64,000 nucleotides of DNA, from NCBI GenBank assembly GCA_010405405.1, contig MU004230.1, forward strand, positions 1,013,744 through 1,077,743. The letters are read 5' to 3'. The DNA comes from Microthyrium microscopicum. Lineage: Eukaryota; Ascomycota; Dothideomycetes; Microthyriales; Microthyriaceae. The notes under the pieces are model-generated. The model did not search any database and was not told the DNA's origin. It saw only the letters and a list, made by a program, of their open reading frames with translations. Shown piece by piece: positions 21,795-27,955 of this stretch; positions within the stretch are counted from its first letter, which is position 1, and each line of letters starts with the position of its first letter. Position numbers and translations under genes: made by a program.

Positions 21795-22467
21795 TTACCG
21801 CTGAATAAGGTGTAGACCGGACGCGGTCTCGATGATTCCGCTCACTTCGCCCGGCTGCAGGGCGAAAGAAGCTTCCTCAAACTCCTTTTGCATGTCGCCC
21901 TGTCCAAAGAAACCGCTGGAAAATGGTCAGTCGAGCTAGGCTTCAACAGTAATAGTCCTGGGACAGGTAAGGGGCACCAGTCAGTGACTTACAGATCACC
22001 ACGCTTTCTAGCGCTGCTGCAATCCGACTCTGATGTTGCAATGTCTCCGAGTGTCTTTTCGCCTGACTTGATTTGAGCCTCATGGGCCTGAAGGATCTCG
22101 CGAGCTTCCTCCTTGGATCGAGTGATTTTGCTTTCACGCCAGCTGGAAGGGCGTCGGCTGCCATTGTGCTTGATCAAGAGATGTGCAGCTCGTATTTTGC
22201 CTTCGCTGCCATTAGCTGCGGTGGAGCGGTTGATACCGGCACTGCTATGATGGGTAGACATGTGCTCCTTCAGCTTGTTGGTATCAGAACCCTCTGGAGG
22301 CTCCCAGCGAGATTCTTTGGTGTCTGCATTGAAATAGTATGGCAGATTTTTGGAATTGGAGATTCGAATTTCCCATCCCGAAGGAAGTCCAGTAGTATCA
22401 GGCTAGGTATGAATTAGTACCACTGAAAGACTAGCTAAGTTACAATGGGATGACAAACAGATACCAT
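21795..22467 (-). CDS. ESS1: parvulin prolyl isomerase Ess1/Pin1
   Basis: Exons 22467..22465, 22402..21993 and 21915..21795 sum to 534 nt, 177 residues. Ess1 isomerises phospho-Ser/Thr-Pro bonds, chiefly in the RNA polymerase II C-terminal domain. The WW domain is near the N-terminus (LPSGWEIRISNSKNLPYYFN, then SRWEPP). The parvulin domain follows with AAHLLIKHNGSRRPSSWR (the His and the Arg cluster that bind the phosphate), SDCSSARKRGDL (the catalytic-Cys region), GFFGQGDM and the end GLHLIQR. The first coding exon is only the ATG itself; the intron after it (22403..22464) has an excellent TACTAAT branch site. The fungal spacing between WW and catalytic domain is normal. The RNA polymerase II subunit gene RPB9 lies 1.2 kb away, divergent. 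Confidence 0.95.
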
Positions 22468-23655: not shown

Positions 23656-24634
23656 ATGTCAAATAACGACGTCGAGGCGAGTGGTAGCACTCAACAACCC
23701 AAAATCACATTCAAATTCTGCCGCGAATGGTATGTTACAGCTAGTAGTCATTCTGCGCCACATCAGCTAATGAACACTTTCTAAATTTAGCTCAAACCTG
23801 TTATATCCACAAGAAGACCGCGAAAATAGTAAACTCGTCTTCGCATGCCGTAGCTGTCCCTACAGTGAACCTCCAATCTCCGAATTAGTCCACCAAAACG
23901 ATCTCAGCAACAAGGTCGGCGAGACTGCCGGAATTACTCAGGACATTGGTCAAGACCCAACGGTTCGTGCTGCGTCCTTCTTTCCCGAGTTGTGCACCAT
24001 GTGTGGTCAAGAGATCCTATGCGATACCTGCGGGAAACCTAACGCACACGGCGTCTGGTTGGAAGTGGACGCGAATGGCGACGAGACCTCCGCAACCGAC
24101 CCCTACGCTGCAACCACCGATGCCGAATCCTTCCTCTACAGCGACGATATGCTCAACGATCCTGCGAATAACATTTTCAGCGATGGCGTTGAAATCGACT
24201 TTTACGATGAAGACATGCTGAGCGATCCCCCCTCGGACGACGATCACGGCGAATACTACATTGCAGACACGAACGGCTACAGTCACGGAGGTCCCGTCTA
24301 CATGAATGGATTCGCGCAGTCAAAACCCGAAGAGAAAGAGGCGGATAATCAGCCAGCGCCCGTAGCATAGTGGATCTCTTCATCACCAGGGTCTGCATGA
24401 TTCTGAAGCGAATTCACTTGGCTAACTTGCGATTTTCATATTATTAGCTGCCCCGTATCCAAAAGACTTGTCCCGCTTGTGGCGAGAACGAAGCCGTCCA
24501 TTTCCAGTCCCAGCAACGTACCGCCGAAACAGGAATGGTAAGTCACGTTCTTCTTCACCTTACTTCTCTTGCTTACTTTGCCTTTCTAGAAATTATACTT
24601 CGTCTGCGTACAGTGTGGTAACGTCTGGCAGTGA
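23656..24634 (+). CDS. RPB9: RNA polymerase II subunit Rpb9
   Basis: Exons 23656..23729, 23791..23962, 24448..24537 and 24590..24634 sum to 381 nt, 126 residues, the usual Rpb9 size. Rpb9 sits on the jaw of RNA polymerase II and affects start-site choice, fidelity and TFIIS action. The N-terminal zinc ribbon has FKFCRECSNLLYP and FACRSCPYSE; the C-terminal ribbon has CPACGENEAVHFQSQQRTAE and FVCVQCGNVW. Between them stands the family linker DPT-LPR, split by intron 2. That intron is 485 nt against about 50-60 nt for its neighbours, starts with a weak GTTCGT donor, and is an open frame from the exon to a TAG at 24370. A second possible donor (GTAGCA at 24362) would insert 133 codons in frame. 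Confidence 0.95.
23963..24370 (+). other. in-frame ORF inside RPB9 intron 2
   Basis: 136 codons continue the RPB9 exon-2 frame without a stop until TAG at 24368-24370. The encoded stretch holds CTMCGQEILCDTC (CxxC-x5-CxxC), then a very acidic segment with two copies of a DML-x-DP motif (SDDMLNDP, DEDMLSDP), and ends KPEEKEADNQPAP. Cutting at the GTAGCA donor (24362) and joining to 24448 keeps phase 0, giving an isoform of 259 residues with the insert between the zinc ribbons. The last 77 nt of the intron, with branch GGCTAAC and acceptor TTATTAG, look like a normal small intron. It could also be expressed from its own ATG at 23990. Confidence 0.5.
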
Positions 24635-25249: not shown

Positions 25250-25938
25250 CGATTCAGAAAATACAACAAAATGTATTGTGATATACGCATCTCCGCTTTC
25301 AAGACGTGGCCTAGAAGCAATTACACCAAGACTCCGCATCATGATAGTTTCCGAAGTCTTCGCGATTCTGTGCAGCTTGGCTGCCCTGCTTGCAAGAAGC
25401 TCCTTCAAATGCTGCCGGACGGAAACTGCATCGAGATTTGGGGTGGAGTGGCTCCTTGCACGGAATGCCATCAAGAAAATATGGCTTCAATGATGATCTC
25501 AAGGTGCATGTGTTTTTCTCTCCTAAATGGCTTTCAAATATCCTCTCAGGAAACAAGCCGCGGTCCAGCCTTGGGAAAGCAAACAAGCATCCGCACTTGT
25601 GCATACCAAGTGTTGCGTCTTGGAACCCGTCAGATCCTTTTGCAACATCAAGCCACTGTTGGGGTTCAGACTCTAATCAAGTTGCAAGACTCGAGGCGGT
25701 CAATCTTCAGACGTTAATAGAGAAGATCGACACTTCAGGCTTACCGCAAACCTTCAAGAATGCTATTGATATCACGAGACTATTTGGGCTAAGGTCTCTT
25801 TGGACCGATAGCCTCTGTATCATTGCCTCAACTCCTTCTACTGGGCAATTCGTTCGCATATGTAAATTGGACTTCACAGATCACAGAGTGGAGGAAATAC
25901 TTGCCTTCTTTGAAGATAGGATCATCGTTATTAGTTAG
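25250..25938 (+). pseudogene. HET-domain (heterokaryon incompatibility) gene remnant
   Basis: The translation resembles the N-terminal part of fungal HET-domain proteins, which trigger cell death after fusion of unlike hyphae. One frame gives a segment with SVQLGCPACKKLL up to about 25490. A second frame, from about 25500, gives SDPFATSSHCWGSDSNQ (family: LSHCWG), SGLPQTFKNAIDITRLFG (family: LPKTFRDAI) and LRSLWTDSLCIIAS (family: YLWIDSLCIIQ). The family's next block (QD..DW..ES) is missing, the frame drifts into unrelated sequence and stops at 25936-25938. A frame change near 25490, no clear start codon and loss of the second half of the domain indicate a broken gene. Confidence 0.72.
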
Positions 25939-27088: not shown

Positions 27089-27955
27089 ATGAATAGCCCC
27101 GAAAGCCAGAACACCTTCAAGCCCAAGCAGGCGCTAGCACCATCACCAACGCTCTACGATGAGCTTGTTGGCAATGGTATGGAGGAGCTGGCAAAGGCGA
27201 CGATTGCAGAGATTGCTGCCATTCCTCGAGACGCGATAGTGCACGACAATGGCTGCGGCACCGGCGCAGCCAGCGCAGCCGTCGTGGCAGCAGTCGCAGA
27301 TCCAACGGCGCCTCTCAAGATCACAGGCACCGACATCAATGACGATGCGCTCGACATCTATCGTAAACGGGCTTCCGAAGAGCGATGGCCTGCATCAGCC
27401 CAGCATGTTGATGCGGCCAGACTGACCTTTGACAACGAGACTTTTACCCATTCCATCAACAATGCTTTGCTATTCGTACTACCGAATGACGGTATCGATG
27501 CCGTAAAGGAGGTACATCGTACACTCAAGCCTGGCGGCGTCGCGCTCTTCAACACTTGGGTTTTCACCCCCAGCCTAGGCCCTGTCCAAATTGCCTCGAA
27601 AGCTACTCGCCCACCTGGCACGCCAGAATTGCGTCAAGGATTGGACAAGTGGTCAAGAGCCGAGTTTCTAAGGACTGTGTTAGAGCAAGGCGGCTTCTTG
27701 AAAGACAATGTGGACATAGTGGAGCGAGATGTGTACATTACAACACCGTCGGCGCTCAAGCGACTGGCAACCATCGTCTGGAGTTTTATTGGCGGGACTT
27801 CGAGCGTTGGGTGGCTCAAAGAGGACGAGGAAAGCTGGGAGAGAGCGGTAGGTATCGTGATGGAGGAACTCAAGAAGACGCCAGGTTTCCAAGAGACGCA
27901 CGATGGTAGGTGTGTTCTAAAGTTTGTGGTGAATATTGTCACTGCAAAGAAGTAG
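27089..27955 (+). CDS. class I SAM-dependent methyltransferase
   Basis: Single exon, 288 residues. The Rossmann-type SAM fold is plain: motif I IVHDNGCGTGAASAA (about residues 50-64), the acidic end of strand 2 in ITGTDINDDALDIYR, the strand-3 Asp region QHVDAARL, strand 4 INNALLFVLPN, and the post-motif HRTLKPGGVALFNTW. No signal peptide or TM helix. Proteins of this layout in fungi are often small-molecule O-methyltransferases of secondary metabolism, but the substrate cannot be read from sequence and no polyketide or peptide synthase is in the window. It sits in the accessory-looking 25-33 kb block and is GC-richer than the flanking non-coding DNA. Confidence 0.88.
   Translation: MNSPESQNTFKPKQALAPSPTLYDELVGNGMEELAKATIAEIAAIPRDAIVHDNGCGTGAASAAVVAAVADPTAPLKITGTDINDDALDIYRKRASEERWPASAQHVDAARLTFDNETFTHSINNALLFVLPNDGIDAVKEVHRTLKPGGVALFNTWVFTPSLGPVQIASKATRPPGTPELRQGLDKWSRAEFLRTVLEQGGFLKDNVDIVERDVYITTPSALKRLATIVWSFIGGTSSVGWLKEDEESWERAVGIVMEELKKTPGFQETHDGRCVLKFVVNIVTAKK

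Follow-up and report, generated by a model that had tools for sequence, protein, structure and literature searches.

A long open frame continuous with RPB9 inside an intron of the gene in Microthyrium microscopicum

RNA polymerase II almost universally includes the small subunit Rpb9, whose plan of two zinc ribbons is fixed. In the Dothideomycete Microthyrium microscopicum, the RPB9 gene has an intron of 485 nt, through most of which the reading frame of the preceding exon stays open. This raises the question of whether the intronic frame is translated, was once translated or is open by chance and, if it is translated, by what route. We analysed a window of 64,000 nt (contig MU004230.1, positions 1,013,744 to 1,077,743); positions given below are those of the window unless another locus is named.

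The RPB9 gene and its default product

Exon 1 of RPB9 (23656–23729; forward strand, like all parts of the gene), placed on the basis that the spliced translation is Rpb9, is followed by intron 1 (23730–23790; 61 nt, with a GTATGT donor) and by exon 2 (23791–23962), which encodes the first zinc ribbon and the linker as far as DPT. Intron 2 (23963–24447; 485 nt) has a GTTCGT donor, a branch-like CTAAC at 24422 and a TTAG acceptor. The second zinc ribbon begins in exon 3 (24448–24537; LPRIQKTCPACG...) and, after an intron 3 of 52 nt, exon 4 (24590–24634) completes the frame with its stop. The disparity that the initial annotation had pointed out, 485 nt for intron 2 as compared with 61 and 52 nt for its neighbours, was confirmed when the coordinates were verified.

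Joined by their default splices, the four exons encode an Rpb9 of 126 residues, in which Pfam profiles recovered both ribbons of the family (PF02150, Zn_ribbon_RPB9, E 1.5e-13; PF01096, Zn_ribbon_TFIIS, E 4.4e-14). The default product aligned with yeast Rpb9 over 108 residues with zero gaps, and the linker left by the default splice, DPT-LPR, has no insertion relative to the yeast protein, in agreement with the earlier statement that Rpb9 ribbons are joined by a short DPTLPR linker. The spliced gene is an ordinary two-ribbon member of the Rpb9 family; the 135 residues encoded in the intron differ, having no significant match to PDB chains, Rpb9 chains included.

Searches of the organism's own genome covered 36.9 Mb on 20 contigs. 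The RPB9 ribbon profile matched at six places, with the RPB9 locus best, two more matches above the cut-off and three below it, and one copy of RPB9 was found. The two further matches above the cut-off are read as the equivalent subunits of Pol I and Pol III. Judged by its translation, the gene at locus L005 (1231–1695 of that locus, reverse strand) reads as the two-ribbon subunit Rpa12, in a single open frame without an insert, and the gene at locus L006 reads as Rpc11, in pieces. No insert like that of intron 2 was seen in the open reading frame lists for these two loci.

RPB9 has a divergent neighbour, a PPIC-type rotamase frame (21989–22261, reverse strand; PF00639, E 3.8e-7), which reads like Pin1/Ess1, a prolyl isomerase that acts on the Pol II tail. 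Just downstream of RPB9 lies a HET domain frame (25390–25938, forward strand; PF06985, E 1e-9) that matched only positions 2–60 of the 146 of its profile, and is perhaps split by an intron or a fragment. A methyltransferase frame of 288 residues (PF13649, E 3.6e-14) is found at 27089–27952 on the forward strand. At gathering scores, Rfam had no match anywhere in the window.

Coding character of the frame in intron 2

The Rpb9 frame runs on from exon 2 through 135 sense codons of intron 2 to a TAG at 24368–24370 (open frame 23963–24370, forward strand), as the initial annotation had described in stating that the first 408 nt of the intron continue the frame. When the 405 nt ahead of the stop were shuffled with dinucleotides preserved, 74 of 20,000 shuffles remained open in frame. 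Only 2 of the 20,000, and none of the 74 that were open, matched the observed codon log-odds. Among overlapping stretches of 405 nt taken outside the training ORFs, 249 of 19,458 were open in the given frame, a proportion that is an upper bound because short exons and the intron 2 frame itself are still included.

The codon model was trained on 63 mechanically called ORFs, each 250 codons or longer (31,373 codons in all; 11 of the 63 ORFs touch a locus end); the intron 2 frame is not one of them. The frame scored 0.281 per codon, as compared with a median of 0.143 and a 95th percentile of 0.291 for 202 coding chunks, and its score exceeds 0.161, the 95th percentile for 130 shadow ORFs. RNY codons make up 0.40 of the frame but 0.15 and 0.16 of the other two frames, and its GC content is 0.55, as compared with 0.40 in noncoding sequence and 0.40 past the stop. 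In steps of 15 codons, the log-odds was 0.32–0.49 between 24053 and 24277, 0.14 between 24278 and 24322, and 0.37 in the last 15 codons; past the TAG, all three frames fall to about −0.15, as would be expected for a real C-terminus. Of 172 ORFs of 130–249 residues, four reached the score of the frame in their best 135 codons: the intron 2 frame itself, one of the 61 that overlap training ORFs, and two of the 110 others.

Several measures were neutral or marginal. The synonymous-only codon score was 0.085 in the frame versus 0.125 and 0.120 in two other frames; by synonymous choice the frame is thus not favoured, and part of the signal comes from its amino-acid content (of 135 residues, 18 are D and 11 are E). 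The first 30 codons, which include all four cysteines, have log-odds near zero (0.02 and 0.04). The best single change point in GC content is at 24423, near the branch-like motif and away from the stop. Codon similarity to eEF1A, H3 and GAPDH was marginal, being as high in 46 of 202 chunks and in 274 of 5,000 composition-matched draws, and this reference is small, with one exon-sized open frame per gene and an H3 frame that overruns its exon. As in these three genes, the ratio of NNC to NNT is raised in the frame (30:16; 72:33 in the reference; 2871:3231 in the sample), whereas the ratio of NNG to NNA is not (7:10; 81:19 in the reference; 2373:2505 in the sample). Taking these measures together, we consider that the intron 2 segment is very probably coding or recently coding. 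The initial proposal of a coding-like frame, continuous with Rpb9 within the intron, is backed by the shuffles, the codon log-odds and the frame-specific RNY pattern.

Splice sites of the intron and content of the encoded tail

The YTRAY branch-like motifs in intron 2 are limited to the CTAAC at 24422 and another at 24039. An internal splice of 103 nt using the latter was considered and dropped; it enters another frame with an early stop. To score donors we used 35 introns of 45–152 nt inferred by joining ORFs (candidates passed at 35 of the 85 ORF ends that had any), whose donor consensus is GTAAGT-like and whose donor scores range from −4.4 to 5.5. The GTTCGT at 23963 scored 1.92, with 9 of the 35 inferred donors lower. 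The GTAGCA at 24362–24367, a poorly supported candidate for an alternative donor that has neither G at +5 nor T at +6, scored −4.55, with none of the 35 lower. In a stricter first set of 13 introns, both sites (1.18 for GTTCGT and −3.75 for GTAGCA) lay under the 1% quantile of 3.02; both intron sets were partly selected by the donor model itself and may include false introns. Since these sets allowed lengths from 45 to about 160 nt only, they do not speak to the rarity of a 485-nt intron in this genome.

We also counted donors lying at intron distance, or at a control distance, from a branch and acceptor pattern. GTAAGT had 20 matches at intron distance versus 3 at control distance, and GTATGT had 10 versus 3. 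GTTCGT showed no excess (1 versus 4), and the counts for GTAGCA (7 versus 4) are too few to matter. Neither donor of intron 2 is typical: GTTCGT is the better in sequence, GTAGCA the better in intron length. A phase-0 GT occurs within the last 15 codons of 34 of the 63 sampled ORFs, and GTA in 15 of the 63; as chance alone is expected to place such a GT close to where an ORF ends, the site at 24362 needs no special explanation.

The encoded tail has a net charge of −25, and 7 of 539 sampled windows of 135 residues are equally acidic. It contains, as the initial annotation had noted, CTMCGQEILCDTC and two DML-x-DP motifs; the repeats DDMLNDP and EDMLSDP are identical at 16 of 21 DNA positions. 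We applied a published composition rule for acidic activation domains (PMC10550315). This rule was satisfied by 23 of 95 tail windows of 39 residues, as compared with 78 of 28,979 windows in the 63 sampled ORFs, 8 of which also hold a passing window. The union of the passing windows is an acidic stretch at insert residues 45–110 (24095–24292, forward strand). The tail thus resembles acidic activation domains in its charge and its W+F+Y+L content; the likeness is compositional only, and activation itself is a prediction.

Cysteines at insert residues 11, 14, 20 and 23 form a CxxC-x5-CxxC (23993–24031, forward strand), a putative metal site. The motif that underlay the earlier suggestion of an extra metal site is present, but no profile or PDB sequence matched it significantly. 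Its CxxC...LCDxC is similar to the DZR_2 double zinc ribbon (the best Pfam match, E 0.16) and to CHD4 (the best PDB match, E 1.5), neither of them significant. The matched region of CHD4 is, we presume, the PHD finger. Unlike a PHD finger or a double zinc ribbon, the stretch in the tail has a shorter loop and no further cysteines. Searches with the frame gave no homologue in NCBIfam (best E 0.22), and the best match in PHROGs, a family of unknown function at E 0.013, was taken as chance. Pattern stretches were found in IMG/VR contigs (8) and in prokaryote genomes (20), none of which was confirmed. In its own genome the frame has no second copy, with one noise match at E 4.7 (limit E 10). The collections searched hold no set of other fungal genomes, and hence the lack of a homologue in them says little on conservation.

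Possible origins of the intronic frame

Exitrons are protein-coding introns that are free of stops and whose length is a multiple of 3. Intron 2 likewise reads as protein in the frame of its host; however, its 485 nt are not divisible by 3 and it contains the TAG at 24368 and further stops, which place it outside this class. A second likeness is to intron retention that yields an alternative C-terminus (a composite terminal exon): here too, the frame of exon 2 enters the intron and continues up to a stop. The present case differs in that retention is predicted from sequence, and in that its open stretch greatly exceeds the usual length of fungal introns; for two fungi, 95% of introns were reported to be shorter than 100 and 150 nt, respectively (PMC2397502). 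Among the literature matches listed for rpb9 introns, splicing, isoforms and zinc ribbons, the parts of the records available name no intron-coded Rpb9 isoform. Among those listed for exitrons, nested genes, donor consensus, long introns and intron retention, the titles and abstract openings do not name this case.

We propose, as the most economical working form and with a probability of roughly 0.38, that retention of intron 2 provides Rpb9 with an alternative C-terminus. The default splice from 23962 to 24448 would give the ordinary 126-residue protein. If intron 2 were retained, or if the transcript ended within it, translation would pass DPT and continue through the 135 codons to the TAG ending at 24370. 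The resulting protein of 217 residues would keep the first zinc ribbon and the linker, and its second, TFIIS-like ribbon would be replaced by an acidic tail with the CxxC-x5-CxxC at its start. On this proposal, the retained form would be made and translated, and its tail might contact coactivators or further proteins that associate with Pol II. Retention is preferred because the codon signal extends as far as the TAG and because the donor at 24362 scores poorly. In addition, intron 2 starts at the junction between the linker and the second ribbon, such that retention would swap a single domain, and the first cysteine is encoded ahead of ATG 23999, the first ATG in frame, which favours an extension of Rpb9 rather than a gene of its own.

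The frame is continuous with exon 2 and coding in composition to the stop, whereas its first 30 codons and its synonymous score are neutral. These last two features, together with the untypical GTTCGT donor, the GC change point away from the stop and the marginal codon similarity to eEF1A, H3 and GAPDH, count against the retention reading. The stop of the retained form is 167 nt upstream of the last base of exon 3, which makes nonsense-mediated decay a real possibility if intron 3 is spliced. In a survey of 42 eukaryotes, retained introns showed no preference for keeping the frame (PMC2397502).

An alternative that we consider possible, if unlikely, is that intron 2 holds a relic, that is, an inserted coding fragment or a former Rpb9 tail that is now spliced out and untranslated, with its frame undecayed. 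Removal of intron 2 restores canonical Rpb9, the genome has no second copy of the frame save the noise match, and GC3 and C3 are above those of nearly all sampled chunks (as high in 6 and 8 of 202, respectively), as if the segment came from elsewhere. However, no source gene was found in the same genome and, given 405 nt without a stop or frameshift and with frame-specific periodicity kept, a relic would have to be recent. It seems quite improbable that the frame is instead joined to the second ribbon through the donor at 24362, in a 259-residue Rpb9 with 133 residues between its ribbons. The initial annotation was right that this site would leave 399 nt (23963–24361), or 133 codons, in phase 0 at both ends, and an 86-nt intron of ordinary size sharing the branch-like CTAAC at 24422 and the acceptor at 24447, and GTAGCA has its 7 matches at intron distance against 4 in the control. 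Its donor is where this route is weak, scoring under all 35 inferred donors and far under the 1% quantile of the stricter set, and phase-0 GT and GTA near ORF ends are frequent.

About as improbable is an independent small gene nested in intron 2, which would begin at ATG 23999 and encode 123 residues; the start at 23990 suggested earlier would require TTG. An A at −3 of this ATG, and codon statistics that are strong from about 24053 and weak before, are what such a gene would lead one to expect, but a start at 23999 would omit the first cysteine of the CxxC pair, and the phase shared with exon 2 would then be accidental (a 1 in 3 chance). The least probable explanation, in our view, is that intron 2 is long but otherwise ordinary and noncoding, and that the frame is open by chance. 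Few shuffles reached its codon log-odds (2 of 20,000) and few ORFs of comparable length its score (4 of 172 with the frame itself included; 1 of 61 overlapping training ORFs and 2 of 110 others), even though the synonymous codon score is not frame-specific, the first 30 codons have no codon signal, and the sample of 172 ORFs of 130–249 residues contains chance or shadow frames of similar length, some of them probably real exons.

Returning to retention, a broader form of this reading, which we hold to be unlikely, is that one gene makes two Rpb9 proteoforms, the second of which may provide Pol II, at the Rpb9 site, with an acidic arm resembling an activation domain, in place of the TFIIS-like ribbon or in front of it, with retention switching both fidelity and coactivator contact. 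If retention does occur, M. microscopicum would have a polymerase variant that is without the second ribbon and bears a regulatory tail, obtained simply at the ribbon boundary. If the frame is a relic, it would clearly illustrate how coding sequence can become trapped in an intron.
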